From Beduinella massiliensis (GTDB lineage: Bacteria > Bacillota > Clostridia > Christensenellales > Aristaeellaceae): 64,000 nt of DNA. Numbering within the stretch: the stretch's first letter is position 1; the number at the start of each line of letters is the position of its first letter. A program made the position numbers and the translations under genes. This document shows, piece by piece, positions 3,171-27,316 of the stretch. Under the pieces are notes generated by a model that saw only the letters and a program-made list of their open reading frames with translations, was not told the DNA's origin and did no database searches. The stretch is taken from the NCBI RefSeq assembly GCF_900199405.1, contig NZ_LT963430.1, forward strand, positions 1,395,605 to 1,459,604, read 5' to 3'.

Positions 3171-3286
3171 TCCGGTGGCAATGGCGAAGGGGATCCACCT
3201 GTTCCCATACCGAACACAGAAGTTAAGCCCTTATGCGCCGATGGTACTTGGCTGGTGACGGCCCGGGAGAGTAGGTCGCTGCCGGA
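3171..3286 (+). rRNA. 5S ribosomal RNA, copy 1
   Basis: About 116 nt with the typical 5S core (cataccgaacacagaagtta) and complementary ends (tccggtgg...). By eye it is identical to the reverse-strand copy at 27317-27432, and the identity runs through the following spacer and tRNA. Confidence 0.97.
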
Positions 3287-3294
3287 TTCCATAT

Positions 3295-3369
<75 letters not shown>

Positions 3370-3562: not shown

Positions 3563-6500
3563 ATGCTCAAAACCCAGGCAATCGTCGAGAAAATCTGGCT
3601 GTCTACCTATCCAGCGCCGCAAGCGGTGAGTCATCCGATATTTGCGGAAAGTCGTGTGCATCAACGTAGTAGCGGTAATCCCTATCCCAATCAGGTGGTG
3701 TGTGATGTAAATAGAGACACGCCCGAGATGAAGGAGTATACGGTCGTTCGTTTGGAGAATGACTATTTACGTCTGCTGCTTCTGCCGGAGATTGGCGGCC
3801 GCATCTTTGAAGCGTATGATAAAGTAAACGACTATTACTTCTTCTACCGTCAGCATGTCATCAAGCCAGCTTTGATCGGCCTGCTCGGTTCGTGGATTTC
3901 TGGGGGCGTGGAGTTCAACTGGCCTTGTCATCATCGGCCTTCTACGTTCATGCCGACGGACTATTCCATTGAGTATGATGAACGTGGCGCTGCAACCGTC
4001 TGGATGAGCGAGCACGAGCCCCTTGATCGCATGAAGGGCATGGTGGGCGTGCGTCTGGCGCCGGATGAAGCAGCGATTGATACGCTGATGCGTGTATACA
4101 ACCGTACGCCGGAACGGCATTCTTTCCTGTGGTGGGAGAATGCGGCGGTGCCTGTAAACAAGGAATACCGCATCTTTTTTCCGCATGATGTGCGCTATGT
4201 GCAGTTCCATTATCGCAAAAATGTAACGACGTATCCGCTGGCATCCGGTTTGTATAACGGTATCAGAATAGGAGATAACAGCGTGGATATCCGTCTGCAT
4301 CGCAATACGATTCAGCCTACTTCGTATTTCTGTGGTGAAACGAAGCGGGAGTTCTTCGGCGGCTACGATGCAGGCAAGCAGCGCGGCGTCGTTCATGTCG
4401 CAAATCGCCACTTGTCCATTGGAAAAAAGATGTTTACCTGGGCGTATAATCAACTTTCACATAGTTGGGAACATGCACTGACAGATACGGATGGCGAATA
4501 TGCAGAACTGATGGCGGGCAGCTATTCGTCCAATCAGCCGGACTTCGGCTGGCTTGAGCCATACGAAACAAAGACGTTCTCACAGCGCTGGTATCCCATA
4601 GGGGCGATGGGGGTGCCGGATGCTGCGCAGCAGGGAGCGGCTGTTCGGTTCGCTGAAAATGGCGTATGGTTGCAGACGACAAGGCCGCTTAAAAACGGTA
4701 TGCTGCTCTGCGGCGGTAAGACGCATAACGTCAGCGCTCAACCGTGTCAGCCTGTATTTGTTCCCTGCAATCCGGCGGCAGCGGTGATTTTGAAGACAGC
4801 GGAAGGCCAAGTGCTGCTTGCGGACAAACTGATGCCAGCGGATGATACGATCATACCCGATCCGTTGCCGTCTTTGCCTCCCCTAAATGAAGGCGGCAGC
4901 GCACAGGAGTTGTATATTCAAGGTTTGCACGTGGATCAATATCGAGATCCGGCAGTCAGGCCTGATGCGTATTATCGAGAGGCACTTTGTCGTGACCCCA
5001 AGCACATTCCGACTTTATTGGCAATGGCAGAATATGAATGGAAAAATGGCCGATACGAGATGGCGCTTGAGTACGCCCAACGCTGTCGAGCAGAAATGAC
5101 CGTTTGGAATTTTCATCCTGAAAGTGGACGGCTGGATTATACGCTTGGCCTGATTCTCGAAGGGCTGGGACGCGAGGACGATGCGTACGACGCTTATTAC
5201 CGTGCTTACTGGAACTTGGATGCGCGAAGCCGCGCGATGACGCGCATTGCTGCGCTGGATGGGCGCAGGCAGAATTACGAAAAAATGTTGGAACATGCAC
5301 GAGAGGCGTTGCGTACCGATAGTGATAACGCGCTTGCCCGCGCTGCGCTTGTTGTGGCGCTTCGCCATCAGGGTAAGGACGGGGAAGCTGCGGCTGCATT
5401 GGAGACATCGCTTGCGATGGATGCGCAGGACATGCTTGCCCTAACGCTCCAGTCTTATTATGAAGGCGACGTGCGCTTTATCAATGGCAGAAAGAGCGAT
5501 CCTTGCCAACTGGCGTTGGATGTTGCTTTTGATCTCCTCCAGCTTGGAGAAAAAGAGTACGCCGTTGCTTTGCTGGATGCGCTGAATGAACCTGTGGTTA
5601 TGACAGCCTATACGCGTGCTGCGATTCTTGGCTTGGATACAGATGGAGGAAAAGCGGCGATGCAGCAGGCGGAAACGCTGGACTTTGGTCATACATATCC
5701 TACACGAGCTGGGGAAGAAGCAGTTCTTCGTGCCGTGATCAAGCATGCGCCGCAAAGCGGCAAGGCGGCGTTTGGCCTGGGCTGCCTTTGCTATCATCAT
5801 AGAAACTATCAAGAAGCTTATGAACTGTGGAAATCGCTGTGTCAGCGTGAGCCTGAAAACAGGCAGGCGATGCGGTGCCTGGGCATGGTGTGCTATAGCC
5901 ATATGGAGAGGAAGCACGAGGGCTATGCGCTGCTGCGCCGCGCTTTAGCGCTCAATCCCAGCGACGCACATCTGACTTGGGAAACGGCCCATGTGATGAT
6001 TAAGCTTGCTTTACCGCCGCAGGAGGTCATCGATTTTCTGAATGCTTCTCCTGTATGCGATGCCCGTGATGATCTCGCTGTTGAACACGCTCGTGCGCTC
6101 AATCTGGCGGGCAAGTGGACAGAGGTTCTTGAACTAATGACGAAGCGCACGTTTATTCCCTGCGAGGGAGGCGAGCATAGCGTCGCTGAGCAGTACATGT
6201 TCGCATGCCATGCGCTCGGACGCGCAGCGCTGCACAATGGCAACGTCGAGAAGGCGCTTGCGCACTTCCGTGCCGCGCAGGTTTTGCCGGACAATCTCGG
6301 CGCGGGCATGTGGAATGAGGTATTGCTGGTTCCGCATCGCCTCTACGAGGGAATTTGTTTAAAGCAAATGGGGCACGAGGAAGAGGCATTTACCTGCTTG
6401 CGTTTCGTGTGCGATTATCCGCAGGATTCCTTTTCAGATATGCATCTGCCGGAACTGCCTTGCTACAAGGCGATGGCACATCGCCAACTGGGACAGGAAG

Positions 6501-6763
6501 CAGCTGCGATTGAATATGCTGCCAGGCATTATCAGAAGTGGGAAAAAGCCAGAAAGACCCGTGATCCGGGCTTCTTTAAAACGACGCCTTTCTTCATCTC
6601 GTTTCTTGAAGACGCACCGACGATGCGCACGTGGGCGTGCAATTACCATTGTGGCTTTGCGTTGAAAAACCTGCAGGGCAAGGAACAGGAGAGCAAGAGG
6701 CTGCTGGCAGGAAGCGATCCTGCGAATCTGTATGCCACGCTGATGGCGAAATTCGACCTGTAA
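3563..6763 (+). CDS. DUF5107 domain protein with C-terminal TPR repeats (copy 1)
   Basis: 1,066 residues from the ATG at 3563, chosen because GGAGGAAG lies just before it; an in-frame ATG at 3518 has no ribosome site. Residues about 40-360 match the DUF5107 family, a beta-sandwich resembling aldose-epimerase folds, with the signature VIKPALIGLLGSW-SGGVEFNWPCHHRP. From about residue 440 the protein is helical and TPR-like, with many A-x3-Y/G-x2-Y repeats. There is no signal peptide or membrane segment, so it should be cytoplasmic. A paralog of the same architecture follows at 8157. The family occurs in sugar loci, but to my knowledge no reaction is securely assigned to it. A role in recognising or modifying a sugar or oligosaccharide is inference. 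Confidence 0.88.
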   Translation: MLKTQAIVEKIWLSTYPAPQAVSHPIFAESRVHQRSSGNPYPNQVVCDVNRDTPEMKEYTVVRLENDYLRLLLLPEIGGRIFEAYDKVNDYYFFYRQHVIKPALIGLLGSWISGGVEFNWPCHHRPSTFMPTDYSIEYDERGAATVWMSEHEPLDRMKGMVGVRLAPDEAAIDTLMRVYNRTPERHSFLWWENAAVPVNKEYRIFFPHDVRYVQFHYRKNVTTYPLASGLYNGIRIGDNSVDIRLHRNTIQPTSYFCGETKREFFGGYDAGKQRGVVHVANRHLSIGKKMFTWAYNQLSHSWEHALTDTDGEYAELMAGSYSSNQPDFGWLEPYETKTFSQRWYPIGAMGVPDAAQQGAAVRFAENGVWLQTTRPLKNGMLLCGGKTHNVSAQPCQPVFVPCNPAAAVILKTAEGQVLLADKLMPADDTIIPDPLPSLPPLNEGGSAQELYIQGLHVDQYRDPAVRPDAYYREALCRDPKHIPTLLAMAEYEWKNGRYEMALEYAQRCRAEMTVWNFHPESGRLDYTLGLILEGLGREDDAYDAYYRAYWNLDARSRAMTRIAALDGRRQNYEKMLEHAREALRTDSDNALARAALVVALRHQGKDGEAAAALETSLAMDAQDMLALTLQSYYEGDVRFINGRKSDPCQLALDVAFDLLQLGEKEYAVALLDALNEPVVMTAYTRAAILGLDTDGGKAAMQQAETLDFGHTYPTRAGEEAVLRAVIKHAPQSGKAAFGLGCLCYHHRNYQEAYELWKSLCQREPENRQAMRCLGMVCYSHMERKHEGYALLRRALALNPSDAHLTWETAHVMIKLALPPQEVIDFLNASPVCDARDDLAVEHARALNLAGKWTEVLELMTKRTFIPCEGGEHSVAEQYMFACHALGRAALHNGNVEKALAHFRAAQVLPDNLGAGMWNEVLLVPHRLYEGICLKQMGHEEEAFTCLRFVCDYPQDSFSDMHLPELPCYKAMAHRQLGQEAAAIEYAARHYQKWEKARKTRDPGFFKTTPFFISFLEDAPTMRTWACNYHCGFALKNLQGKEQESKRLLAGSDPANLYATLMAKFDL

Positions 6764-6786
6764 CCCAGAATTTCTTCAATATTGAT

Positions 6787-6820
6787 AGGCAGCGCTGCAT
6801 GACGTTGTGCAGCGCTGCCT
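6787..6820 (+). terminator. Strong hairpin after the first DUF5107 gene
   Basis: Perfect 13-bp stem aggcagcgctgca/tgcagcgctgcct with an 8-nt loop, 23 nt after the stop codon. The T tract is poor (gcttt), so termination may be partial. It ends 3 nt before the -35 box of the next gene, so an operator role is also possible. Confidence 0.6.
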
Positions 6821-6823
6821 GCT

Positions 6824-6852
6824 TTGACAAACCCATAAGGAAATGATATACT
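6824..6852 (+). promoter_or_regulatory. Near-consensus promoter of the regulator gene
   Basis: TTGACA (6824-6829), 17-nt gap, TATACT (6847-6852). The expected transcript start near 6859 is downstream of the in-frame ATG at 6843, so that ATG cannot be used from this promoter. Confidence 0.85.
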
Positions 6853-6884
6853 GCTTGCAAAAATGGAGCGAAAAGAGTGGTGTT

Positions 6885-8018
6885 GTGGCAGCTGTCCGCT
6901 ATTATATGATGGTGGAACCCACCTTTGCCGGAACGCATTGGTGCAACCAGTGCATACAGGGGATTAGGAAGGAAGTCTCCCGCAATAAAGGAACGCTGGT
7001 AGAAGTGCCTGTGGGCGATCAAGCTGCGCTTGAGCGCGTGCTTACCCAAGCACGTCCGCTCTTGATTCTGGTGGGTTCTTTGGTGAATTGGATGACGGAA
7101 ACGGTGCAGCGTTTAAGCCATACAGGCATCCACTGCATCATGATGACGGCACCGCCGCCGGATGGAAGCATAAGCGTAAGCACCATCTCTATGGATTACA
7201 ACCAGGGTATCTGTGATCTGTTTCGTTATCTGACGCAGATGAATCGAGGACGAGTGGCCCTGTTTGGCATTCATCCCAATTCGATCAATGATTTAACCAA
7301 GCAACAGACCTATTGTGAATACGTGTTTCGCCACGGCGGAAATGCGGAAGGAATTTTCCATAATGATGGAGATCTGCGAGAAGCATGCGACCGTTTCTAT
7401 CGCAGAATACGAGAATTTGATGCGGTAATCTGCTCGAATGATATCATTGCGATCCAGTTACAGGACCATTTGAAAAGACACAATATTCGAATTCCGGAGG
7501 AAATGTACCTTGTCAGCATTGGCGAAACGCGGCTTTCTCAGCTTGTGCATCCGCGCATCACGACGGCATCTTTGAATTTTACGGATATCGGGCACAATGC
7601 CGTCCGTCTGTACAACATCCTGAGAAAGAATGAAACCATCACAGGGCTTCATGCAAAGGTACGCGGTACAATTGAAGCATGGGAATCGACCGGCAACGTA
7701 CCGTATGAGAAAGAACCCCCGCGCATGACGCTGCCGGCAATGCCAGGGCAGAGCGGCTTCTACACAGATGAAAATGTGCGTCGGATTTTCATGTTGGAGA
7801 ATTTGATTTCCCATTGCCTTCCGATTGATTTTGCTATTTTACGGGGGGTGATGGATGGAACGCCATACCACCGAATTGCCGAGGAATGCTATACTTCTGA
7901 GAATGCCATTAAGTATCGATTACGGCGCATGGTTGAACTTTCCCAGTGTGAGACGAAGGAAGAGATGATTCAGCTGGTTCAAGAACGGCTGAATATCGAT
8001 GATCTGCCGAAAGAGTAA
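6885..8018 (+). CDS. LacI-type ligand-sensor regulator with C-terminal LuxR-like HTH
   Basis: 377 residues if the GTG at 6885 is used. The ATG at 6843 overlaps the promoter -10 box and is unlikely; ATGs at 6906 and 6909 are alternatives, and no candidate has a strong ribosome site. Residues about 1-275 resemble the periplasmic-binding-like sensor of LacI/GalR repressors (CIQGIRKEV, a DAVICSNDIIAIQLQDHLKR-type segment, VSIGETRLSQLVHPRITT). No LacI-type HTH precedes it. Instead residues about 318-377 look like a GerE/LuxR HTH: VMDGTPYHRIAEECY followed by TSENAIKYRLRRMVEL. This order is the reverse of LacI. Lying between two DUF5107 genes, it probably controls them in response to a sugar (inference). 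Confidence 0.85.
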   Translation: MAAVRYYMMVEPTFAGTHWCNQCIQGIRKEVSRNKGTLVEVPVGDQAALERVLTQARPLLILVGSLVNWMTETVQRLSHTGIHCIMMTAPPPDGSISVSTISMDYNQGICDLFRYLTQMNRGRVALFGIHPNSINDLTKQQTYCEYVFRHGGNAEGIFHNDGDLREACDRFYRRIREFDAVICSNDIIAIQLQDHLKRHNIRIPEEMYLVSIGETRLSQLVHPRITTASLNFTDIGHNAVRLYNILRKNETITGLHAKVRGTIEAWESTGNVPYEKEPPRMTLPAMPGQSGFYTDENVRRIFMLENLISHCLPIDFAILRGVMDGTPYHRIAEECYTSENAIKYRLRRMVELSQCETKEEMIQLVQERLNIDDLPKE

Positions 8019-8089
8019 ACTCAAATCATAAAAGCTTTTGCGGTAAATGTCAACGATAATTTTCGGCGGAAAAGAGAAAGAACCTTGGC

Positions 8090-8118
8090 TTGAGACACAA
8101 GAAGCCCCCTGTTATACT
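8090..8118 (+). promoter_or_regulatory. Promoter of the second DUF5107 gene
   Basis: TTGAGA (8090-8095), 17-nt gap, TATACT (8113-8118). The -10 box lies inside the left arm of the 19-bp palindrome at 8105-8147, so transcription would start near 8125, in the loop of that palindrome. Confidence 0.75.
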
Positions 8119-8147
8119 GATTTTAATGAAATCAGTGTAACAGGGGG
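8105..8147 (+). promoter_or_regulatory. 19-bp palindrome spanning promoter and Shine-Dalgarno
   Basis: Arms 8105-8123 and 8129-8147 pair over 19 bp (18 Watson-Crick pairs and one G-U) around the loop taatg. The left arm contains the -10 box and the right arm ends in aggggg, the ribosome site of the GTG at 8157. As DNA it could be an operator. In a transcript arriving from upstream it would hide the ribosome site, whereas a transcript started at the local promoter would lack the left arm. It could also end the upstream regulator mRNA, but the following ttgttattt is a poor T tract. Confidence 0.7.
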
Positions 8148-8156
8148 TTGTTATTT

Positions 8157-11100
8157 GTGTCTGTTAAATTAACGCATGAACCGATGCATATCCCGACCTA
8201 TCAACCGCACGCGGCGAACACATTGCCGTTCTTCCTTGAAAAGAAAGCGTATCAAGGCGCTACGGGCCGTATTTATCCCGTTCCCTATACCGACCAACTA
8301 TCAAACGAGCGGGCGGACAAGGTTTACGACGCCTATACCATTGAAAATGAGCACGTGAAAGTCATTCTACTGCCCGAACTGGGGGGCAAAATTCATGGGG
8401 CTGTTAACAAGCATAATCACTATGAATTCATCTATCAGAACACAGTCATCAAGCCTGCGATGGTCGGTATTGCCGGCCCGTGGGTCAGCGGCGGCGTTGA
8501 GTTCAACTGGCCACAGCATCATCGGCCGACTACCTTTCTGCCGACAGAGGTAACAACACAAAAAAACCAAGATGGTTCCATCACAGTCTGGATGGGTGAG
8601 GCCGAGCCATTTCATCGCATGCGTGGCATGGTGGGCATTACGGTATATCCTGGATGCAGCTATGTGGAAGCCAAGGCTGTGGTGTACAACCGTACCGACA
8701 ATCCGCTGCCATTCATGTGGTGGAACAATCTGGCGGTGCGCGTCCATTCGCAGTATAAGGCGACCTTTCCGCCGGATGTCGCGTATGGCAATGACCACGA
8801 CCGCCGTGCAGTGGTGCCATTTCCGGTGATGAAGGGCGTATACAAAACTGCACGTCCCTTTGATTACGGTGAGGGTACCGATGCGACGTGGTTCAGCAAT
8901 ATCAAGCTCCCAACCTCCGTCATGATAATGCGTGGACAGAGCGCCATGAACTTCATCGGCGGCTACGATTTTGCAGCGGATGCCGGCACAGTCACGGTTT
9001 CCAACCACCACACCAGCGTTGGAAAGAAAATGTGGACGTGGGGCGACGGGGCTTTTGGCCGTGCGTGGTGCGCGAATCTCACCGATAACGGCGATCGGTA
9101 TATCGAATTGATGACCGGTGTATACACCGACAATCAACCGGACTTTACGTATATCATGCCAGGGGAGACAAAGGTATTCTCTCAGGTGTGGTTCCCGATT
9201 CACACCATTGGGGAAGTGAAAAATGCCTCTAAGGAAGGGGCACTGAGCCTGACGGTAAGGGAAGGAAACATCCAGCTCGGCGCGCTGACAACCCGTGAGC
9301 GCGGTGCGGCAAAGATCCGCCTGACCTGTAAAGGAGAGGTCATCCTCGAGAATGGGGTCGATATCTCTCCGGATAAAGCATATGTTGATAGACGCAGGAT
9401 GCCTGAAGGTGCAAAGGAAACTGACCTGTGTTTGACGATGCTGGACGCCTCCGGAAAGGAGCTGCTCAGCTATCATCCCATAGACATTTCCGGTAAGAAG
9501 CCGCCCGAAGCACGTCAGATACCGCCTGACCCCAAGGATGTAAAGAGCATTGAAGAACTGGTTCTGCATGGCGCACATCTGGAGCAGTATAAACATCATA
9601 CCTACGTACCAGAGGATTACTACCTTGAGGCGCTGCGCCGCGACCCGACCGACCTGCGCAGCAATCTTGCGATGGGCCGATCCTGGATAGAAAAGGGCAA
9701 TTACGTGAACGCCCGGGTCTGTCTAGAAGCAGCGAATGCGAAGGTCAAGATGCGCAACGACAATCCAGCGGATACCGAGGTTTTCTATCAACTGGCGCGT
9801 TTGGAACGCCTGGCGGGCAATATGGACCGTGCATATGACCTATTCTGGCAGGCAGCGTGGCAGTACGCGTGGCGTAGCCCAAGCTACTATGAGATTGCCT
9901 GCATTGATCTGATTCGTGGGGATCAGGAGCAGGCCATTGAACACCTAAATCTGTGCCTGGAAACCAATGCACGTCACTATGCCGCCCGGGCGCTTCTCGG
10001 CTACATCACCAAGGATGAGCAGGCGTTGCGCGCGATTCTCTCTCAGGCTCCGCAGGATGGCCTAAGCCGTTTCTGTCTGCATCTGCTGACGGGAGAAACC
10101 CTGAGCGACTTTATTCTCTCACGCAGCGAGGATATGACGGATATCGCCCTGGATCTGGCTCACGCTGGACTCAGGAAGGAGGCGGTTGCCGCGCTGAACG
10201 CTTGCACGAAACCCACACAGATGCTGTACTACCATCTGGCGAACCTCACAGGGGAAGAACCAAAGTATTGCGATCTGGACTATTGTTTTCCGAACCGTCT
10301 GGAAGATATCCCGGCGCTCCGCCGTTGGGAGTGGCAGGCGCAGTATTTGCTGGGATGCCTATATTATGACCGCATGAACTATGCTGCGGCAGTGGAGGCA
10401 TGGGAACGGGCGGTGCGGCTGAATCCGAAGCACGCATATTCCAAGCGCTGTTTGGCTCAGGCGTATTTCGATCACATGGAACAGCCGGATCATGCACTGC
10501 GGCTGCTCGAAGAAGCGCTCGCGCTTGCCCCGGACAACGCCAGAATTCTGTACGAGCTTTTACAGATGAAGAAGAACATGAAGGCCAGCGTCGAGGACAG
10601 AATTGATTTGCTTGAGGCGCATGGCGATCTGGCGCGCAGCCGTGACGACTGCTTCCTCGATGAGATTATCCTGTACACGCAGGCTGGTCAGTACATGAAG
10701 GCCCGTGAGTTGCTGCTCAGCAAGCGATTTAACATCTATGAAGGCGGCGAAGGCAAGCTGACCCGGCATCACGGATGGCTCTATACCCTGCTGGGAGACG
10801 AAGCAATGAAGGCTGGCGACCTTGAAAAAGCGCTTGAATGGCTCCAGGCCGGGCTGGTTTACCCGGCAAACTACGGCGAAGGCCGTCATTACAGCGCTCA
10901 GGAAGGGAACATCTACTATTATACCGGGCTGGTGTATGATGCGATGCACCATTCGGAAAAAGCGATAGAAGCATATCGGATGGCTGCTGCTCAACCGAGT
11001 CAGATCACCGAGATGAGCTTCTTTGCTGCCAAGGCGATGGAGAAGCTCGGCAAGGTGGACGAGGCAAAAGCTGAATTTACCAGAATGCTTGCGCAGGGGA

Positions 11101-11330
11101 AAGCAGGGCTTGCAAGCTGCCATCGTTTTGGATACTTCGGTGTGGGGATGGCAGCACCGCTGCCGAGTGAGCTGGATATCACACGTATGAACAAGATTGA
11201 CGCCTATGTGCTTTGCGTGTTGGGCAAGAAGGGGTTAAATCAGGAGGCTACGGCAGAGATGAATGCTCTGCTCGAACTGGATCCCTGCAACACAAAGATC
11301 GATTTTTTCCGAAAGTTGGGGTGGCTGTAA
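8157..11330 (+). CDS. DUF5107 domain protein with C-terminal TPR repeats (copy 2)
   Basis: 1,057 residues from GTG at 8157; aggggg ends 9 nt before it, and the in-frame TTG at 8148 lies too close to that site. It has the same plan as the protein at 3563: an N-terminal DUF5107 domain with VIKPAMVGIAGPW-SGGVEFNWPQHHRPTTF and MRGMVGITVYP, then from about residue 450 a TPR region with clear repeats such as LGCLYYDRMNYAAAVEAWERA and AYRMAAAQPS. No export signal is present. The two copies are clearly paralogous but diverged, so they may act on different substrates or form a hetero-complex (inference). The FAD oxidoreductase gene follows after 59 bases. Confidence 0.88.
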   Translation: MSVKLTHEPMHIPTYQPHAANTLPFFLEKKAYQGATGRIYPVPYTDQLSNERADKVYDAYTIENEHVKVILLPELGGKIHGAVNKHNHYEFIYQNTVIKPAMVGIAGPWVSGGVEFNWPQHHRPTTFLPTEVTTQKNQDGSITVWMGEAEPFHRMRGMVGITVYPGCSYVEAKAVVYNRTDNPLPFMWWNNLAVRVHSQYKATFPPDVAYGNDHDRRAVVPFPVMKGVYKTARPFDYGEGTDATWFSNIKLPTSVMIMRGQSAMNFIGGYDFAADAGTVTVSNHHTSVGKKMWTWGDGAFGRAWCANLTDNGDRYIELMTGVYTDNQPDFTYIMPGETKVFSQVWFPIHTIGEVKNASKEGALSLTVREGNIQLGALTTRERGAAKIRLTCKGEVILENGVDISPDKAYVDRRRMPEGAKETDLCLTMLDASGKELLSYHPIDISGKKPPEARQIPPDPKDVKSIEELVLHGAHLEQYKHHTYVPEDYYLEALRRDPTDLRSNLAMGRSWIEKGNYVNARVCLEAANAKVKMRNDNPADTEVFYQLARLERLAGNMDRAYDLFWQAAWQYAWRSPSYYEIACIDLIRGDQEQAIEHLNLCLETNARHYAARALLGYITKDEQALRAILSQAPQDGLSRFCLHLLTGETLSDFILSRSEDMTDIALDLAHAGLRKEAVAALNACTKPTQMLYYHLANLTGEEPKYCDLDYCFPNRLEDIPALRRWEWQAQYLLGCLYYDRMNYAAAVEAWERAVRLNPKHAYSKRCLAQAYFDHMEQPDHALRLLEEALALAPDNARILYELLQMKKNMKASVEDRIDLLEAHGDLARSRDDCFLDEIILYTQAGQYMKARELLLSKRFNIYEGGEGKLTRHHGWLYTLLGDEAMKAGDLEKALEWLQAGLVYPANYGEGRHYSAQEGNIYYYTGLVYDAMHHSEKAIEAYRMAAAQPSQITEMSFFAAKAMEKLGKVDEAKAEFTRMLAQGKAGLASCHRFGYFGVGMAAPLPSELDITRMNKIDAYVLCVLGKKGLNQEATAEMNALLELDPCNTKIDFFRKLGWL

Positions 11331-11389: not shown

Positions 11390-12721
11390 ATGCCGGTTTG
11401 CTGCCGAGAAGCTGTTGAGCTGAAGCCAACCTGGACTGAAAGGAAGGGGAACGTTATAGAAACGATCAAGTGGAATGAAGAGATTGAACTCTTTGGAGAA
11501 TACGATGTACTGGTGGCGGGCGGCGGCGTGGCGGGGGTTGCTGCTGCATTGGCGGCAGCCCGCCACGAGAAACGGGTATTGTTGGTTGAAAAGCAATGCT
11601 GCCTAGGCGGTTTAGCGACTGGCGGTATCGTGAACTTTTGGGTACCGCTATGCAATGGGCGCGGGCGCATGATAATTCGCGGCATTGCCGAGGAGCTGCT
11701 GCGGCTCTCGATACGATACGGATTTGACACGCTGCCGTCGGAGTGGAAACACGGAGAGCCCGAAGGGCCCACAAAGGCCAGATGTGCAGGATGGTTTTCG
11801 GGCGGTATGTTTGCATTGCAGCTTTTGGAGCTTCTGCGAGATGCGGGGGTGACTATTCTGTACGACGCAACGGTCCTGGATGCCGTCATGGCGGGATCGG
11901 TTTGTCTAGGGGTGATTCTAAGAAGCGGCGCAGAAAAACGGTTTTATCGCGCCAAGATGATCGTGGATGCTACGGGGGACGCAGAGATTCTTTGCCGGGC
12001 AGGCGTGCCTACTGTGGAAGGCGCAAATTATCACACCTATTATGGGGAAGGTATTACGCTCCAGGGCTGTGAAAAGGCTCTGGCTACGCAGAATATTTAC
12101 TGGGCCTATACCCATCCTTATGGCGGAACGTCTGACCTGCATGGCGGGAATCATCCTGAGGAGCTTCCTCTTTATCAAGGAACGGATCCTGATACAGTAA
12201 ACCGCTATCTGCAAGACAATCAATTGGAAATGCTGGCAAAGGAAAAGTTGAAGCCACGGTTTTCGCGTAATATTCACATGTTGCCGACCATGCCGCAGCT
12301 GAGAACGGCACGCTGTATTGATGGAGACGAGACGTTCACCGCAGAAGGATGTTACCGGCATTGCGGCACATCGGTCGGTGTAATTTGCGACTTTGAATAC
12401 CGCGACCGCCTGTATGAAGTGCCGTACGGTTCTCTGGTGCGAACGGGTTTTGATAACCTGATTACCTGCGGCCGAAGCGCTTGCGCTTCTGGATGGGGAT
12501 GGGATGCGCTCCGCGTCATCCCGCCAGCGATTTTGACCGGACAGGCGGCGGGGACTGCCGCAGCGATGGCGGTTAAACATAGTGTTTCGCTTCCAAAGTT
12601 GTCCATTGAGGTATTGCAAGAGGCGCTTGAAAGAGCCGGGGTGGCGATACACTTTGAGGATGATTGGGTGCCTGAGCAGGATGCGGAGGAAGAGAGGGCG
12701 GTGCAGGCAGATCATATTTGA
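11390..12721 (+). CDS. FAD-dependent oxidoreductase (PF12831-like)
   Basis: 443 residues as drawn. Residues about 38-70 form a Rossmann dinucleotide-binding site (YDVLVAGGGVAGVAAALAAAR, ending in an acidic LLVEK strand), followed by the CCLGGLATGG motif of the FAD_oxidored family. The C-terminal part has the second FAD segment (GFDNLITCGRSACAS, then RVIPPAILTGQAAGTAAAMA). The start is uncertain. ATG 11390 has only GGGG upstream, while a much better ribosome site (aggaagggg, 11441-11449) sits before a non-standard ATA at 11456, from which the protein would begin right before the Rossmann fold. It belongs to the sugar island and may oxidise a sugar or a sugar-derived acid; the substrate is unknown. 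Confidence 0.85.
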   Translation: MPVCCREAVELKPTWTERKGNVIETIKWNEEIELFGEYDVLVAGGGVAGVAAALAAARHEKRVLLVEKQCCLGGLATGGIVNFWVPLCNGRGRMIIRGIAEELLRLSIRYGFDTLPSEWKHGEPEGPTKARCAGWFSGGMFALQLLELLRDAGVTILYDATVLDAVMAGSVCLGVILRSGAEKRFYRAKMIVDATGDAEILCRAGVPTVEGANYHTYYGEGITLQGCEKALATQNIYWAYTHPYGGTSDLHGGNHPEELPLYQGTDPDTVNRYLQDNQLEMLAKEKLKPRFSRNIHMLPTMPQLRTARCIDGDETFTAEGCYRHCGTSVGVICDFEYRDRLYEVPYGSLVRTGFDNLITCGRSACASGWGWDALRVIPPAILTGQAAGTAAAMAVKHSVSLPKLSIEVLQEALERAGVAIHFEDDWVPEQDAEEERAVQADHI

Positions 12722-12783: not shown

Positions 12784-13719
12784 TCACATACGCTGCAGGG
12801 ATATTGACGTTTTATACGTAAGCGTCTGCCCTGGACAAATGAAGCGGAAGCCCATTGCCTTGCGGTCAAACGGCGCATTCGGACAATTATTCAGCCATGT
12901 CTGCGGCTCCACACATAGGAAATCCTTGCTTCCTCCGTTGTAAACCATCCAAAACCGATAGGACTCGTCTGCCTGGTAAACGATCTGCATCTGCTTGGCG
13001 GCGTCCTTGAGAATCATCCGGCGCGAGCTGTCCATGTCATAATGGCGGCTGAGCGTATGGTTTGCGGGAACGACGGTGCCTTCCAGCAGTGCGCTGCGCA
13101 AAGGAAATTCGGACAGCACTTCACCTGTCGGCAGAAAGGTATCCATATTTCGCACATACTCCCGCTCGACGCCCAGACAAAGGCGCACGTCCTGCACGTC
13201 TCCCTCGGAAACAAAGGGGAGCCGGAAGGTGGTGTGAAACCCGAGCGCGACAGGCATATTGCTTGCGGAGCAATTGGTAATAGAGATACGCTGCTGGATT
13301 CCGTCCGGCGTCAGGCGGTAGAGGACGCGCATTTGAAACGCATGTGGAAACGTCATGTAGGGATGCGTTTCGTCGGCGTCAAAAAGGAATTCGGCTTCGG
13401 TGGGTGAGCTTCGGATACATGGGAGGGCGGTTTCGTGCAGCACACCATGGATAAAGTTTCCGATTTCCGGTTCATTCATGGGGAAGCGATATTCGCGCCT
13501 TTCAAACTCAAAGCATGCACCGGAGATACGGTTGGGGGGAAACAAAATGGGAATCCCCCATAGGTACGGATTGGTTTGAAAAAAGGTATCCAGCGTCCGC
13601 GGCGTACGCAGCACGTCCATACCCAGTTCAGGTTTTCTGAGCGCTACCAAATTGGCGCCGCGCTGCGCACAAATTTCGGCTTCGTAGCCAAAGCCGGTGA
13701 GCAGAAGGGTATCTTTCAA
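12784..13719 (-). CDS. Aldose 1-epimerase (galactose mutarotase) family protein
   Basis: 311 residues, starting at a TTG (complement of 13717-13719) with a perfect AGGAGG eight bases upstream. Family features include an N-terminal beta-rich part with GANLVALRKPE, GIPILFPPNRI, the NFIHGVLH motif carrying a conserved His, and VALGFHTTFRLPF with the second His. A catalytic Glu would lie near the C terminus (FLCVEPQTW). Members interconvert alpha and beta anomers of free or phosphorylated hexoses in the cytoplasm. It is the only minus-strand gene in the island and points away from the glycosidase gene at 14018. Confidence 0.88.
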   Translation of the reverse strand: MKDTLLLTGFGYEAEICAQRGANLVALRKPELGMDVLRTPRTLDTFFQTNPYLWGIPILFPPNRISGACFEFERREYRFPMNEPEIGNFIHGVLHETALPCIRSSPTEAEFLFDADETHPYMTFPHAFQMRVLYRLTPDGIQQRISITNCSASNMPVALGFHTTFRLPFVSEGDVQDVRLCLGVEREYVRNMDTFLPTGEVLSEFPLRSALLEGTVVPANHTLSRHYDMDSSRRMILKDAAKQMQIVYQADESYRFWMVYNGGSKDFLCVEPQTWLNNCPNAPFDRKAMGFRFICPGQTLTYKTSISLQRM

Positions 13720-14017: not shown

Positions 14018-15130
14018 ATGAACGATGTTTGGTCTAAAGAAAAGGCGTGGAAATGGTATGACGACAGAACGTGGATGCGCGGCTGTAATTTTATGGGAAG
14101 CGATTGCGCAAACCGCATCGACCAGTGGCAGGCGCTGGGCTTTGAGAAGCGCCTTGAAACCGCAGATCGAGAGCTGAAGCTTGCCGCAGAAACAGGATTC
14201 AACACCATACGTATCATTCCGGAGTTTATCGTTTGGGATCAGGATCACGATGGGTTCATGGAGCGCTTTGACCGTTATCTGGCCACAGCGTGGAAGTATG
14301 GAATCTCTTCGATGGTTGTCTTCGGCAATGACTGCATGCCGCCCAAGAACGAATTCTGGAAGCCGCTTCAGCTTGGCGAGCAGCACTACGACTGGGGCTA
14401 TCATGGTGGACGCAAGTTCTCCCAGCACCAACACTTCGGCGAGATGGGGTATCACATCATGGATGAGCCGGAAATCATGGCACGCCATGAGGTGTGGGTA
14501 CGAGAGATCATGGAAAAGTATAAAGATGATCCGCGCATTTGTGTGTGGGATCTGTACAACGAGGCTGGCAACAGCAATCGTGAGAGCGTCAGCCTGCCGA
14601 ACGTGAAGCGTTTCTTTGAGGTCGCGCGTGAGGTCAATCCGTCTCAGCCCATCACCTCTTGCCTGTGGAAGCATTTGGGTCACAAAGGACAGGAAAATTA
14701 CCTGACGGAAGTTGAACAGTATATCGCTGAAAACAGCGATATTATTACCTATCACTGTTACTCGGATTACAACGAAAATATTAAGCTGATCAGATACCTT
14801 CAACAGTTTGAGCGCCCGATTATCAACACGGAATGGCTGGCGCGTATGCTCCACAATACCGTGGAGGAAATGTTCCCGCTGTTCTATCTGATGAAGATTG
14901 GCTGCTTGAATTGGGGATTTGTTGCAGGACTGTATCAGACCTATGAACCGTGGAACGGTATGTGGCAGAGCTATGAAGCGGGAAAGGGCGAGCATATCGA
15001 TTTCAAGGTGTGGTTCCATGACCTCTACCGTCCGAACCTCAAGCCCTATGACCCGCATGAGATTGAGCTGATCCAGCAGTACTGCAAGCTGGCGGATGAA
15101 GACTTTGCCCGAGGGCAGATGAAAAAGTAA
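14018..15130 (+). CDS. Clan GH-A glycoside hydrolase (GH5-like TIM barrel)
   Basis: 370 residues starting at ATG 14018 behind aagggggg. The TIM-barrel signature is clear. The acid/base is E182 in the strand-4 motif WDLYNEAG, after VWVREIMEKYKDDPRI, and the nucleophile is E272 in PIINTEWLAR on strand 7. Aromatic residues (W298, W312, W316) sit in the right places for sugar stacking. There is no signal peptide, so it should act inside the cell on imported oligosaccharides. GH5 or a near relative is likely, but the exact family and linkage cannot be settled by reading. The YesMN-LplABC-like genes follow in the same direction. Confidence 0.88.
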   Translation: MNDVWSKEKAWKWYDDRTWMRGCNFMGSDCANRIDQWQALGFEKRLETADRELKLAAETGFNTIRIIPEFIVWDQDHDGFMERFDRYLATAWKYGISSMVVFGNDCMPPKNEFWKPLQLGEQHYDWGYHGGRKFSQHQHFGEMGYHIMDEPEIMARHEVWVREIMEKYKDDPRICVWDLYNEAGNSNRESVSLPNVKRFFEVAREVNPSQPITSCLWKHLGHKGQENYLTEVEQYIAENSDIITYHCYSDYNENIKLIRYLQQFERPIINTEWLARMLHNTVEEMFPLFYLMKIGCLNWGFVAGLYQTYEPWNGMWQSYEAGKGEHIDFKVWFHDLYRPNLKPYDPHEIELIQQYCKLADEDFARGQMKK

Positions 15131-15150
15131 AGCGTTGGCATGCGCAAGAG

Positions 15151-15191
15151 AAGCCACTGCGGCTCCGATTCTACGGAGACCGCAGCGGCTT
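15151..15191 (+). terminator. Imperfect hairpin after the glycosidase gene
   Basis: Arms aagccactgcgg...tccg and cgga...ccgcagcggctt pair with a small bulge, 20 nt after the stop. The T run is weak (cttatt), so partial termination or mRNA 3'-end protection is more likely than a full stop. Confidence 0.5.
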
Positions 15192-15251
15192 ATTGCGCTG
15201 ATATGTTTTCTGCAATCGCATGGACAGAGGGGCATAAAAGGGGGCGTAAAT

Positions 15252-17015
15252 GTGAAAAAAGGAAATAAGCATGAACACTCGTTGCTCACTGTTCTGCTGA
15301 TGGAGACGATTGCCGTGACGCTCTGTGTCTGTGTACTGGTATCCTGGGTGGCACGAGAATCATCGGCGAGCTTTGAAGCGTACATCATCAAAAGTCATGT
15401 ACAGGAGACGAGCGCATTTGCGGATGTGTTCTCGTCGGATATTACGAAACTGAATATACAGCTTTATGACGAGCTGTGCGATACAGCGCTCTCGCGCTTG
15501 TGGCTGTATCTGGACAGCGAACTCATCAAATACAACTATTTGCAGCAGGTGCACATCGTTCAGCGCCAAATTGAGACCATTGAGAAATCGACGTATTTTC
15601 TGGATGCGGTCAAGATCTACATGCCGGAGCATGAACGGGTGATTTCAAAGGAGAGCGTCATCTGGTACGAGCCGGCCTCCTGGCCGATTCCCGAAGAGCT
15701 GTATAATACGCGCGGTATCCGGTTGATCAGCCGCGGCGATATATTGGAAATCTGTGCTGTGCGTCGAGCGGTTCCACGTCAGACCGTGATGATTGCAGCC
15801 ACTGTGACCCAAAAAACGCTGGCACAGTATCTCAAAAAGTATATATCAGACGAAGACGTTCTGCTTGCGGTGATGTACGAAAACGGAGACGAAGCGGGTT
15901 TCTTCACTGCGTCCGCGACAATAGATGACGAACTTGCTCAGAGCGTACAGGCGGCTATGACGCAGGAGGCACAGGGAAGAACACAGGTTATCGTAGACGG
16001 GATACGATATCTGCTGATTTGGGAGCATATCGAGCCGATTCCCCTGCGGATATGCCGGCTGATGCCTATGGCGCAGATCGACGCTCAGCTTGACGCATAT
16101 AACCGTATGGTAGGGGTGATCTGCGTGTTGGTGGCCGTGCTGTTGGTGTTGCTAAATTGTTTTCTGTACGAAATGGTCAAAAGGCCGGTCAGGCGCATGA
16201 GCGAGGCGCTCAGAGGCGTGGGCGAAGGGGATCTGTCCGTACGCATTCAGCCGACGTGGAGTTCGGAGTTCGGACAGATTTTTTCCCAGTTCAATCAAAT
16301 GACGGAGCGCCTCGGGCAGCTGATCGATCAGGAGTATACCCTCAAGATGCTCACTGTCAAGGCAGAGCTCAAGCAGATGCGCTATCAAATCAGCCCACAT
16401 TTTCTTTACAATACGTATTTCAATATGCGTGCCATGCTCCATGATGAGGATTACGAGGCTGCGGAGGAGATGTGCGGGCTCATGGGGCGTTACCTTCGCT
16501 ATATCACCACGTCTGTGGAAGATGAAGCGACGCTCGAGGAAGAGCTGGGCCATGCGTTGGCCTACCTTCAAATTCAGAAGCTCCGTTTCGGCGAGCGGCT
16601 AGGCGTTCAGGTAGAGCCCTGCCCCAGGGCGGCGCGGGGCATTCATGTGCCACGCATAATCATTCAGCCTCTGATCGAAAATTCATTTGAGCACGGCGTC
16701 AAGGACAGGCGCGACCAGGGGATTATCGGCGTGCAGATTCAGCTTGAGGATGAACGATTGTCCGTCTTTGTGGACGATAATGGCCCCAATGCGTCGGATG
16801 AGATGATTTCGTCACTGACGGAGCGCCTTCGTCAGGACGACTTTGACCCATCGGTAGATTCAGTAGCGCTGATGAATATTCAAAAGAGGATTCGGCTTTC
16901 CTATATGCAGGGAAGCGGCGTGTTTGTGAGTCATTCGCCGCTGGGAGGCTTGCGAGTGGAAATTAGGATGCTGGGGGTGAAGGGCGATGCTTCGTATGCT
17001 GATTGTGGACGATGA
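15252..17015 (+). CDS. YesM-type sensor histidine kinase
   Basis: 587 residues from GTG at 15252 with agggggcg six bases upstream; the longer frame from 15135 lacks a ribosome site. Order of domains: membrane helix about 11-34, an extracytoplasmic sensor of about 250 residues, a second helix about 287-306, HAMP (RPVRRMSEALRGVGEGDLSVRI), the His_kinase domain typical of YesM/LytS types with phospho-acceptor H383 in QISPHFLYNT, and an ATPase domain with the N box IIQPLIENSFEHGV. Such kinases sense extracellular sugars or binding-protein complexes and pair with YesN-type regulators. The partner gene overlaps its 3' end by 29 nt, so the two are co-translated. Confidence 0.93.
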   Translation: MKKGNKHEHSLLTVLLMETIAVTLCVCVLVSWVARESSASFEAYIIKSHVQETSAFADVFSSDITKLNIQLYDELCDTALSRLWLYLDSELIKYNYLQQVHIVQRQIETIEKSTYFLDAVKIYMPEHERVISKESVIWYEPASWPIPEELYNTRGIRLISRGDILEICAVRRAVPRQTVMIAATVTQKTLAQYLKKYISDEDVLLAVMYENGDEAGFFTASATIDDELAQSVQAAMTQEAQGRTQVIVDGIRYLLIWEHIEPIPLRICRLMPMAQIDAQLDAYNRMVGVICVLVAVLLVLLNCFLYEMVKRPVRRMSEALRGVGEGDLSVRIQPTWSSEFGQIFSQFNQMTERLGQLIDQEYTLKMLTVKAELKQMRYQISPHFLYNTYFNMRAMLHDEDYEAAEEMCGLMGRYLRYITTSVEDEATLEEELGHALAYLQIQKLRFGERLGVQVEPCPRAARGIHVPRIIIQPLIENSFEHGVKDRRDQGIIGVQIQLEDERLSVFVDDNGPNASDEMISSLTERLRQDDFDPSVDSVALMNIQKRIRLSYMQGSGVFVSHSPLGGLRVEIRMLGVKGDASYADCGR

Positions 17016-18567
17016 GGAGCGAATTGTTCATTCGATGTATAACCTGATGGACGAGCACTTCGATTTTGAATTGCACCGATGCTATTCGGCCGTACAGGCG
17101 CTGCAAGAGGTCCGTGCTGCGCGGTATGATATCATCCTGTCCGATATCTCGATGCCGCAGATGAGCGGATTGGAGCTGCTGGAAGAAACACGCAAACTCT
17201 GGCCTAAGTGCTATTTTATTTTGCTCACCGGCTTCAGCAAGTTCGAGTATGCCTATCAGACGCTGCAATACGAGCGGGTAGATTATGTGCTCAAGCTGGA
17301 GAGCTATGAAAAAATTTGCGAGGTTGTGCAAAAGCAGAAGCGGCTGATTGAGCGGGAGAAGCAGGAGGAAGAGACCCTGGCCCGTTACGAACAAGATCTG
17401 AACCACCTGAATACATCCGCCCTGCGCCTTTTTCTCAAACGCATTATCGTGCAGGGTACGCCGCTGCCTGAGCAGGACGAGATGAATGCGCTGGGGTTGC
17501 CGCTGCAGCTGGACAGACCGATGGTGCCCGTGCTCGCGGCAATCAACGGAGGCGATCTTGTAAACAGGGATCGAATCGCCGAGGAGCTGGATGCTTATTT
17601 AAATGCACGGCTAGGGCCGCTCGGAATGCGCTGCCTGACATATGTTTCAATGAGCTGCAACATATTTGTCGTGCAGTTGAATAGACGGGAGAGCGTAGAG
17701 GGAAAGATGGTCTTCATCCATACGCTGCTTGAAAACTTGCCGTCTATGGTTGCACAGCAGCTCCAGGCGGAGCTTGCTCTGATCTGTCCGGAGCACTTTA
17801 TAGCATGGGAAAATGCACACGATCTGTATGAACGGGCTGTGATTGCATTGGAGAGTATCCGCAACGAGAGCGGTATGATGATTCTGGTGGAAGCGGAAAA
17901 TGACGCGAGACGGCCAGAGGCGGATTTTCCGGGGTTCGAAGAAACACAGCTGCTCTGGAATATGATCAAATGCGGCGATATGGCCGGCTTTGAGACGATG
18001 CTCCGCAAAGGTGCGGATAAACGGGCGCTGGGCGGTCCAATTCCGCCGGGCATTGTGTTGCTGCTGCGGGAGGCGGCGAGGCTCTATGCACCTGAGTTCA
18101 TCCAGGGAACGACGTATAAGCACATCGTATCTATCCGCTATCAAGCAGGCGAGTGGGTGCAGGACGTCTTGGACGCCATCGTGGAGATCAGCCACGCCCA
18201 TGAACAGTCGCGGGAATCACAGGGGGCGTGGCTGATTACACGCATCAATCAGTACATCGAGCAGCATTACATGGAAGACGTTACCCTCACCGGGCTTGCC
18301 GATGTAATGCATTACAGCCCGTCCTATCTTTCCAGAATGTATAAGCTCAAAACGGGCAGAAATTTGATTAGTGCGCTGTACAATGTGCGCATTAGCAAAG
18401 CGAAGGAGCTGTTGGCGCACTCCACGCTCAAAACCAATGAGATTGCGGAACGGTCGGGTTTCTGCTCCCTTAAATATTTCAATCGCGTGTTTAAGAAGGA
18501 AACGGGTATCTCCGCGGCACAATATCGCAACGAACAGATGATGCTGAAAAAAGCGATCGAAAATTAA
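16987..18567 (+). CDS. YesN-type response regulator (REC plus AraC HTH)
   Basis: 526 residues. N-terminal receiver with acidic D8/D9, phospho-acceptor D53 in IILSDISMP and a K in YVLKLES; a long middle region of unknown fold (about 130-410); and a C-terminal AraC/XylS double HTH (TLTGLADVMHYSPSYLSRMYK, then TNEIAERSGFCSLKYFNRVFKK). Phosphorylation by the kinase at 15252 should trigger activation of the adjacent binding-protein/permease genes (inference from family and order). It overlaps the kinase gene by 29 nt, and 140 nt separate it from the transporter gene, which has its own promoter. Confidence 0.93.
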   Translation: MLRMLIVDDEERIVHSMYNLMDEHFDFELHRCYSAVQALQEVRAARYDIILSDISMPQMSGLELLEETRKLWPKCYFILLTGFSKFEYAYQTLQYERVDYVLKLESYEKICEVVQKQKRLIEREKQEEETLARYEQDLNHLNTSALRLFLKRIIVQGTPLPEQDEMNALGLPLQLDRPMVPVLAAINGGDLVNRDRIAEELDAYLNARLGPLGMRCLTYVSMSCNIFVVQLNRRESVEGKMVFIHTLLENLPSMVAQQLQAELALICPEHFIAWENAHDLYERAVIALESIRNESGMMILVEAENDARRPEADFPGFEETQLLWNMIKCGDMAGFETMLRKGADKRALGGPIPPGIVLLLREAARLYAPEFIQGTTYKHIVSIRYQAGEWVQDVLDAIVEISHAHEQSRESQGAWLITRINQYIEQHYMEDVTLTGLADVMHYSPSYLSRMYKLKTGRNLISALYNVRISKAKELLAHSTLKTNEIAERSGFCSLKYFNRVFKKETGISAAQYRNEQMMLKKAIEN

Positions 18568-18707: not shown

Positions 18708-20411
18708 ATGAAAAAAGTAGTTACCCTGTTCCTGGCGCTTATGCTGCTACTGGCCGCTGTCCCGGGGCTTGCGGTAGACCAGCACGAACCGGAATTCTAC
18801 GAACAGCAGATTCAGCTGCTGACGGAGAACTTACAAAAGTGGTATGAAGAGAACTATGGAGAGGGCGCGTTGGTTGCTCCGTATGATGAGCCCGTTGAGG
18901 TCAATATCGTCAACTACTACAACACCACGCTTGAAACCAACATGGCGACATGGAACGAATGGTGGGGTGAGACGCTTGAGAAAAACCGCTACACGGAGGC
19001 GATTGAGCGCGCACTGAACATCAAGATCAACTACCTGTGGCTTAAGAACGATGCGGATAAGGGCTATATCAACCAGCTGCGTCTATCCACCGCTGCAGGC
19101 GAGATTCCGGATATGTTCATCGTTACGGAGCAGACCGACTTGATCCAACTGGCTGAAGCGGGCGTCATCATGCCGGTGGAGGATGTGATCGATCAGTACT
19201 TTACTACGAAGGATAAGGAGATCCAAAATTCCGACGGCGGCATGCTCTATGAGATGGCTACCTATGAAGGACAGGTGTACGGCGTTCCTTGCAACGTATC
19301 CGATACGGACACCTTCTCCTACATCTGGCTGCGCAAGGATTGGCTTGACGCGTTGAAACTTGAGGCGCCAAAGACGATGGAAGAGCTCAAGACGATTATG
19401 ACCGCGTTCAAAGAGGCTGATTTTAACGGCAAGAACGACAGCTTTGGCATGTTGATTGACAAGGATCTCTATTACAGCACGCGCGGCCTGTTCGCCGGCT
19501 TCGGCGCGTATCCGGAATTCTGGGTTCAGGATGACGCGACCGGCGAGATCGCCTGGGGCGGCACGCAGGAGAACATCAAAGCTGCTTTGACGTATCTGAA
19601 TGGTCTGTACAATGAAGGCCTGCTGGATCCAGAGTTTATCACCCAGACCAACGCCGATGCGCTCTCTCTGATGCTCAACAGCCAGACCGGCGTGATCTAT
19701 GCGGGTCATTGGATTGCGCATAATCTGCAGAATCTCCATGACGAGGATGACAACGCCGAATGGATTTGCGTGGATCTGCCGTCTTTGGATGGCTCCCCGG
19801 TTGAGCAATATCTGACGCCGGTCAAACGCGGCTGGATCGTTATCAACAAGGACTACGAGCACCCTGAGGTTGCGGCAAAAATCCGTGCCCTGTGTACCTT
19901 CGCCAGCCAAGGCGGCGTGGTGGACGGTACCTGGTGGTTCTCCAACGATCAGGCCCAGATTCTCGAACCGTTCCAGGCGAGCGTTTCCTCTTGGGATAAC
20001 TACGATACTTACCTGAACCTGCTGGAGTGTTTTGCTTCGGGCGATACCTCTGTGCTGAAGGGCAAAGCCGTTACCTACTGGGGCAACATGAGCAGCGATT
20101 CTTCCTGGGCGTGGCATCTCATGTTCGGCGATGGAGACTATACGCCGATGCGCGTACTCGGGCGTGCGATTGAAGAAGATCGCATTGAATATGACAAGTT
20201 CCTTGGCGCACAGAGCGAGTTTATGCAGGATCGGTGGAGCACCATCAAGGATGAGCAGTTGATTGCCTTCACAAAGATGATCATCGGCGACGTCGGCATT
20301 GACGAGGGCTTTGCCGCATGGCAGGCGACTTTTGCTGCGATGGGCGGCGACCGCATCACCGAAGAGGTCAATGATTGGTATCGGCTGTCTCAGGAAAAGA
20401 AAGCTGAGTAA
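18708..20411 (+). CDS. Extracellular sugar-binding protein, LplA/YtcQ type
   Basis: 567 residues from an ATG behind aaaggaggt. A Sec signal (KK followed by VVTLFLALMLLLAAVPGLA) is followed by a large solute-binding domain of the family-1 type (VNIVNYYNTTLETN, GEIPDMFIVTEQ, YGVPCNVSDTDTFSYIWLRKDWLDAL, NSQTGVIYAGHW). It should capture an oligosaccharide outside the cell and hand it to the two permeases that follow. Oddly, no lipobox cysteine is present near the signal end, although most Gram-positive binding proteins are lipoproteins. It may be released, or held by the permeases or wall. Confidence 0.92.
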   Translation: MKKVVTLFLALMLLLAAVPGLAVDQHEPEFYEQQIQLLTENLQKWYEENYGEGALVAPYDEPVEVNIVNYYNTTLETNMATWNEWWGETLEKNRYTEAIERALNIKINYLWLKNDADKGYINQLRLSTAAGEIPDMFIVTEQTDLIQLAEAGVIMPVEDVIDQYFTTKDKEIQNSDGGMLYEMATYEGQVYGVPCNVSDTDTFSYIWLRKDWLDALKLEAPKTMEELKTIMTAFKEADFNGKNDSFGMLIDKDLYYSTRGLFAGFGAYPEFWVQDDATGEIAWGGTQENIKAALTYLNGLYNEGLLDPEFITQTNADALSLMLNSQTGVIYAGHWIAHNLQNLHDEDDNAEWICVDLPSLDGSPVEQYLTPVKRGWIVINKDYEHPEVAAKIRALCTFASQGGVVDGTWWFSNDQAQILEPFQASVSSWDNYDTYLNLLECFASGDTSVLKGKAVTYWGNMSSDSSWAWHLMFGDGDYTPMRVLGRAIEEDRIEYDKFLGAQSEFMQDRWSTIKDEQLIAFTKMIIGDVGIDEGFAAWQATFAAMGGDRITEEVNDWYRLSQEKKAE

Positions 20412-20423
20412 ACGCAGGTTTGA

Positions 20424-20456
20424 CTTGTGCCGGCCGCAAAACGCGGCCGGTACAAG
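20424..20456 (+). promoter_or_regulatory. Intercistronic hairpin between binding protein and permease
   Basis: 14-bp stem cttgtgccggccgc/gcggccggtacaag (one G-U pair), loop aaaac. There is no T tract. Such hairpins behind binding-protein genes usually protect the upstream mRNA and thin out downstream transcription, giving more binding protein than permease (known pattern, inferred here). Confidence 0.7.
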
Positions 20457-20474
20457 CTTAAGGAGGGAATGAAC

Positions 20475-21407
20475 GTGTTTGCCAAAAAAGAGATGGCCAG
20501 GTACAAACACAGAAAATTCAGAATCAGCGAGATTCCGCTGCATCTGATGCTGATTCCGGGTATGATCTTCACTGTGCTGTTCCACTATGTTCCCCTGGCT
20601 GGCCTGGTGATCGCATTTCAGCGGTTTATTCCCGCCAAAGGTTTGTTCGGCGATCAAAAGTGGGTAGGTTTACAGAATTTTGAGTACATTTTCACCATGC
20701 CCAACTTCTATAATGTGCTGCGCAATACAGTGGTGATCGCCTTTGGAAAAATTGTATTGAATCTGCTGGTTCCGATCGTTGTAGCGCTCATGCTCAACGA
20801 GCTACAGCATCGAAAGATAAAGCGCTCAATCCAGACCATCATTTACTTCCCGCATTTTTTAAGCTGGATAATCTTCGGTTCTATTATCATGGATCTTCTT
20901 TCCCCGTCAAACGGCATTGTCAACCAGTTGCTGAACCTGCTGGGCTTTGATTCTATTTACTTCTTAGGAAATAATAAATACTTTCAGCAGACGATCGTCT
21001 TGACAGACGTATGGAAAAGTTTCGGATATGGAACGGTCGTCTACATGGCCACCATCACGGGCATCGATCCTACGCTGTATGAGGCTTCTGCCATTGATGG
21101 GGCAAACCGCTGGAAGCAGACCTGGCACATCACCCTGCCGGGTATGCGCATGATCATCGTGCTGATGATGGTGCTTAGCCTAGGCAACGTGCTCAATGCC
21201 GGCTTTGATCAGGTTTACAACATGTACAGCCCAGTCGTCTATGAGACGGGCGATATCATCGATACGATGGTGTATCGCCTTGGCTTGGAAAATGCCAAGT
21301 ATGGGCCGGCAGCGGCGGTAAGCATTTTCAAGTCGATCGTTTCGCTGTTGTTTATTTCAGTTTCGTACTTTGTCGCGTATAAGTTTTTTGACTACAGTCT
21401 GTTTTGA
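20475..21407 (+). CDS. Sugar ABC transporter permease, LplB type
   Basis: 310 residues from GTG at 20475, eight bases after AGGAGG; an ATG at 20469 is too close to that site, and the longer frame from 20427 would begin inside the hairpin. It has six membrane helices and the permease loop EASAIDGANRWKQTWHITLPGMR, the EAA motif that docks on the ATPase. It resembles LplB/YteP permeases for complex sugars. No ATPase is encoded nearby, so a shared MsmX-like ATPase is expected elsewhere (inference). Confidence 0.92.
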   Translation: MFAKKEMARYKHRKFRISEIPLHLMLIPGMIFTVLFHYVPLAGLVIAFQRFIPAKGLFGDQKWVGLQNFEYIFTMPNFYNVLRNTVVIAFGKIVLNLLVPIVVALMLNELQHRKIKRSIQTIIYFPHFLSWIIFGSIIMDLLSPSNGIVNQLLNLLGFDSIYFLGNNKYFQQTIVLTDVWKSFGYGTVVYMATITGIDPTLYEASAIDGANRWKQTWHITLPGMRMIIVLMMVLSLGNVLNAGFDQVYNMYSPVVYETGDIIDTMVYRLGLENAKYGPAAAVSIFKSIVSLLFISVSYFVAYKFFDYSLF

Positions 21408-21420
21408 GGGAGGGAGAAAA

Positions 21421-27233: not shown

Positions 27234-27308
<75 letters not shown>

Positions 27309-27316
27309 ATATGGAA

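Follow-up and report, generated by a model that had tools for sequence, protein, structure and literature searches.

Two DUF5107-TPR proteins flanking a sugar-sensor regulator in Beduinella massiliensis: candidate cytoplasmic carbohydrate-active enzymes with a predicted mutarotase fold

The DNA analysed here (the window, 64,000 nucleotides of Beduinella massiliensis contig NZ_LT963430.1) encodes two long proteins, A and B, on either side of a single regulator gene (Table 1). Both were assigned to PF17128 (DUF5107) with 158 and 154 bits respectively, well above the Pfam gathering score of 24.4 bits that defines membership, and in both the domain is followed by TPRs, which bears out the original prediction of two DUF5107-TPR paralogs of about 1,060 residues around one regulator. 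No other PF17128 genes were found in the genome. A and B are 32% identical across some 1,000 residues (2e-144) and share the SGGVEFNWPxHHRP core that had been pointed out earlier, most positions of which are invariant in an alignment of 69 rows. Each has the long, YphG-type form, i.e. DUF5107 and then about 600 TPR residues with family-specific invariants, and both fall among the long forms in the tree. The start of A was placed at ATG 3563, just downstream of GGAGG, in an ORF that opens at 3518; for B we preferred GTG 8157, preceded by AGGGGG, over TTG 8148 where the ORF opens. Export signals were found in neither protein, as had been claimed, hydropathy over 15-residue stretches of the first 60 residues peaking at 0.65 (A) and 0.37 (B) versus 2.99 for the nearby solute-binding protein, and hydropathy revealed no transmembrane stretch in either.

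Table 1. Features of the A/B locus, with positions in the window
Feature	Position	Strand	Evidence or remark
DUF5107-TPR protein A, predicted mutarotase-fold domain and TPR half, 1066 aa	3563..6763	+	PF17128 3.5e-46; RBS GGAGG; A-type clade, support 100
Sigma70-like promoter TTGACA-17-TATACT, putative, for regulator	6824..6852	+	11/12, by consensus match; overlaps upstream ATG 6843
Regulator, Peripla_BP_3 sugar-sensor domain and apparent C-terminal HTH	6906..8018	+	ORF opens 6843; relatives suggest start 6906
Promoter-like TTGAGA-17-TATACT upstream of B	8090..8118	+	By consensus match
43-nt inverted repeat, -10 box to RBS of B	8105..8147	+	RNA fold -45.6 kcal/mol, z -8.7
DUF5107-TPR protein B, 1057 aa	8157..11330	+	PF17128 4.5e-45; AF2 model pLDDT 93.1, pTM 0.91
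FAD-dependent oxidoreductase	11390..12721	+	PF12831; relative in same cluster in L029
Aldose 1-epimerase family protein	12784..13719	-	PF01263 4.4e-28
Clan GH-A TIM-barrel glycosidase-like protein, no signal peptide	14018..15130	+	PF02836 5.4e-6
Sensor histidine kinase (HAMP, His_kinase)	15135..17015	+	
Response regulator with AraC HTH	16987..18567	+	
ABC sugar solute-binding protein	18708..20411	+	SBP_bac_8 1.8e-15
ABC permease	20427..21407	+	BPD_transp_1 1.5e-11
ABC permease	21370..22344	+	BPD_transp_1 9.7e-7

There is one regulator only between A and B. Its sensor domain matches PF13377 (1e-13), while an N-terminal LacI HTH is absent, so that the combination of N-terminal HTH and sensor expected of the LacI family does not hold. 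The HTH-like segment is C-terminal: Pfam gives it a weak HTH_30 match below the cut-off (0.0044), and a YLSxNxxKYRxKRM segment, HTH-like in appearance, is conserved there throughout the regulator family. All 11 members of this family in the clusters compared adjoin a DUF5107 gene in those loci; further homologs in genome G022 stand beside other genes. Family members in Clostridia adjoin A-type as well as B-type DUF5107 genes. The near-perfect 43-nt palindrome upstream of B is present as a single copy in the genome and, judged from its sequence, is a putative operator or else an RNA hairpin that would hide the RBS. An operator shared by the family was rejected, the palindrome being absent upstream of A and of the DUF5107 genes of relatives; two partial matches in the genome look like chance -10 boxes, and no other meaningful genomic site was found.

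The A/B cluster is a sugar-utilisation locus, and parts of it recur in other genomes. The GH-A protein has counterparts of 54-70% identity in loci L029, L108 and L110. In L108 (genome G019) a B-type gene accompanies counterparts of the GH-A protein, the solute-binding protein and the permeases that are 68-76% identical; in L110 (G022) an A-type gene accompanies GH-A protein and permease counterparts of 54-72% identity, and L029 unites B with the FAD oxidoreductase, the GH-A protein, the permeases and the solute-binding protein. A hybrid histidine kinase with SBP_bac_3 sensor and receiver domain is encoded at 24209-27091. A 201-nt 5S rRNA-tRNA-Asn stretch is found twice, at 3169-3369 and 27234-27434, 100% identical and in inverted orientation; the two copies bracket 24 kb containing the sugar locus, and the right copy lacks an adjoining 23S. 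Outside this inverted repeat lies a lacto-N-biose phosphorylase-type gene, another galactoside enzyme (28496-30808, PF09508 4e-215).

DUF5107 relatives are encoded in at least 592 stretches of the genome collection, in Bacillota, Bacteroidota, Acidobacteriota, Verrucomicrobiota, Actinomycetota, Chloroflexota, Fusobacteriota and Enterobacteriaceae, and include members from gut genera and from E. coli K-12. In the papers searched, DUF5107/PF17128, YphG, the yph operon and PDB entry 5CD6 have no function or reaction, DUF5107 being mentioned once, as unknown, and no enzymatic role of the A/B architecture was found there. The family is known by name, and A and B are members with a reaction still to be assigned. 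Of the undescribed cytoplasmic glycan system proposed originally, the cytoplasmic location, the relation to glycans and the missing reaction therefore stand, whereas its peculiarity to this locus does not: the family is large, spans many phyla, has members in E. coli and Klebsiella and includes a relative of solved structure.

According to the AF2 model, B consists of a supersandwich (1-350), a small beta-sandwich (356-440) and a TPR superhelix (465-1053). Foldseek searches with a model of the N-terminal half (pLDDT 88.6) returned 5CD6 as best match (TM 0.82), followed mainly by galactose or hexose mutarotases at TM up to 0.69, E. coli YphB among them, so by model this half adopts the galactose-mutarotase fold. 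PF01263 matched neither A nor B at an E-value of 0.01. The conserved acidic, Trp and His residues thought to resemble a site were confirmed as a set of 13 polar or aromatic candidate pocket residues that do not vary among 69 long and 7 short relatives, namely (B numbering) N64, E115, N117, H122, N178, W188, W189, K291, W295, W304, Y315, E317 and Q327. The two universally conserved glutamates, E115 and E317, would be compatible with a glycoside hydrolase. Mutarotases have two His and one Glu as their conserved catalytic residues (PMC5902678). An HHalign alignment of a deeper profile pair (prob 23%, E 0.0009; profiles from small alignments gave nothing usable) weakly places E317 on the mutarotase catalytic Glu, and in this alignment one mutarotase His region falls on WW188-189; mutarotase chemistry is therefore probably not simply retained.

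Invariant residues continue into the TPR half, with H474, R764, E800, R829, E862 and E865 conserved throughout the 69-row alignment. Furthermore, the invariant loop 324-329 (DNQPDF) has a pLDDT below 50 when modelled without the TPR half, and its block averages 84 when the TPR half is present, a suggestive comparison since the two models used unlike alignments (69 versus 49 rows). Because of the invariant charged residues, the loop that is confident only in the presence of the TPRs and the many different partner genes described below, the TPR half probably completes the sugar site rather than acting as the multi-protein scaffold first envisaged, which is the less likely option. We know of no described family in which TPRs are used in catalysis.

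One of the systems closest to A and B is that of E. coli YphG (b2549), like them a full-length DUF5107-TPR protein. Its yphBCDEFG/yphH locus likewise has a sugar ABC transporter, the aldose epimerase-like YphB and a sugar-type regulator, but differs in its ROK regulator, the type of ABC transporter, the YphC dehydrogenase, the single DUF5107 gene and the lack of a GH-A protein. YphG and the Klebsiella relative form a long branch of their own in the tree, and PMC10305011 describes YphFED as no more than a putative sugar transporter. BDI_1685 of Parabacteroides distasonis (5CD6), the structural match to the N-terminal half of B, has the DUF5107 domain in a chain of 580 residues whose helical half is short. 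The same 13 invariant residues are kept by short-form relatives, which measure about 670 residues, and the locus of a near relative of 5CD6 is of SusC/SusD type and also encodes a DUF4091 protein. Galactose mutarotase/aldose 1-epimerase (PF01263) has the supersandwich fold and probably the catalytic Glu in common with A and B; it differs from them in sequence, as the lacking PF01263 match indicates, in the Trp-Trp with which its His region weakly aligns, and in the large TPR half that they have added.

The genomic context was explored in 79 loci, the closest relatives of one query rather than a random sample, by comparing genes within 4 kb of DUF5107 with those more than 6 kb away in the same loci. 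Near versus far counts were 31 versus 1 for AraC regulators, 24 versus 0 for sugar porters, 18 versus 0 for GH2, 5 versus 0 for GH35 and 8 versus 1 for epimerase-type genes, and Pfam tallies agree with them; near sequence amounts to 547 kb and far sequence to 311 kb, therefore the contrast exceeds the difference in length. The GH2 neighbours are close to PDB 8U01, a member of subfamily GH2_20, for which beta-galactosidase activity has been reported (PMC12243196). These BT4151-like enzymes and GH35 have another fold, belong to other families and are not homologous to DUF5107; since their genes often adjoin DUF5107, they probably act in the same pathways. The galactoside theme that this suggests derives from the neighbours of relatives and not from the A/B locus itself. 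The sugar porters next to DUF5107 resemble XylE. Monosaccharides are the usual cargo of XylE-like porters and of ABC systems of the CUT2 type, therefore an enzyme acting on monosaccharides would fit as well as a glycosidase.

In our view A and B, as members of the DUF5107 (YphG) family, are carbohydrate-active enzymes that work in the cytoplasm and most likely cleave a glycosidic bond, a reading to which we give an even chance. They are best read as carrying a mutarotase-derived site closed by the TPRs, with glycoside cleavage as first guess, epimerisation as second and sensing as third. In the proposed mechanism a small or oligomeric sugar would enter through the ABC transporter and bind in the N-terminal mutarotase-fold domain, at a site made of the 13 residues N64 to Q327. 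The TPR superhelix would fold back over this site and add residues, e.g. H474, R764, E800, R829-D831 and E862-E865, after which Glu/His acid-base chemistry may take place at the anomeric carbon of the imported sugar. The glycosidic bond would most likely be cut by A and B alongside the GH-A-type glycosidase, the linked aldose epimerase would equilibrate the released sugar, and the LacI-type sensor regulator between the two genes would switch them in response to that sugar. As anciently diverged paralogs, A and B presumably differ in specificity. More tentatively, DUF5107-TPR may represent a new glycoside hydrolase family, or another glycoside-cleaving one, in which the mutarotase-fold domain and the TPR superhelix together build the active site. 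Minimal loci are informative here. In Klebsiella a regulator, DUF5107, a sugar porter and an aldose epimerase leave DUF5107 as the sole glycosidase candidate; the E. coli locus has the ABC transporter, YphC and YphB, and that of Cetobacterium ABC genes, AraC and DUF5107, both without another glycosidase. Against this reading, many DUF5107 loci already encode ordinary glycosidases. DUF5107 sits in sugar-uptake loci across many phyla without a reaction in the literature searched, and the residue list together with the minimal E. coli yph and Klebsiella loci makes the question of its function directly testable.

These minimal loci also bear on a rather doubtful alternative, in which A and B would act as epimerases or mutarotases on an unusual sugar, for instance an oligosaccharide or keto-sugar, having kept the ancestral chemistry in a pocket that is widened or closed off by the TPR half. 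The mostly mutarotase Foldseek matches after 5CD6, the weak alignment of E317 with the mutarotase Glu and the conserved H122 at hand all agree with it, but the Trp-Trp aligned with the His region does not, and loci often contain an aldose epimerase of their own (Klebsiella, E. coli, the A/B locus and the 8 of 79 loci counted above). A separate epimerase in minimal loci argues against DUF5107 as a plain 1-epimerase.

Partner genes bear likewise on an unlikely role of A and B as sugar sensors or scaffolds in the cytoplasm, with sugar bound by the mutarotase fold and partner proteins, such as the regulator, transporter or glycosidases, by the TPR half. Protein binding is common among TPR superhelices, and the regulator gene adjoins both A and B. 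Across the loci compared, however, DUF5107 has no constant partner gene; transporters (MFS, CUT1, CUT2), regulators (AraC, ROK, LacI-like) and glycosidases all vary by locus, and the invariant residues, charged TPR positions included, outline a candidate small-molecule site.

The gene trio is not confined to Beduinella. The order A, regulator, B is repeated in Candidatus Gallimonas caecicola (L032) and in Clostridia RGIG2037 (L042), where an aldose epimerase gene follows, and the variant order regulator, B, A occurs in L036. A recent local duplication yielding redundant proteins in an accidental trio, which common family, adjacency and similar length might suggest, is highly improbable given these recurrences and is contradicted by the tree (a quick method with SH-aLRT support only), in which A-type and B-type genes form separate, well-supported clades, each with relatives in other genomes. 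Conservation of the trio, suggested originally as a check, is nevertheless partial, A-type and B-type genes also occurring singly. About a dozen further genomes of the bacterial family carry A-type orthologs of about 50% identity; most of these genomes lack B, and ABC permease genes often lie opposite the ortholog. Strict co-occurrence of A and B is thereby ruled out. The pair with its regulator is a recurrent variant within a known family, not the rule. In L184 and L189 an A-type gene and a short DUF5107 gene (about 670 aa) share one ABC-transporter locus.
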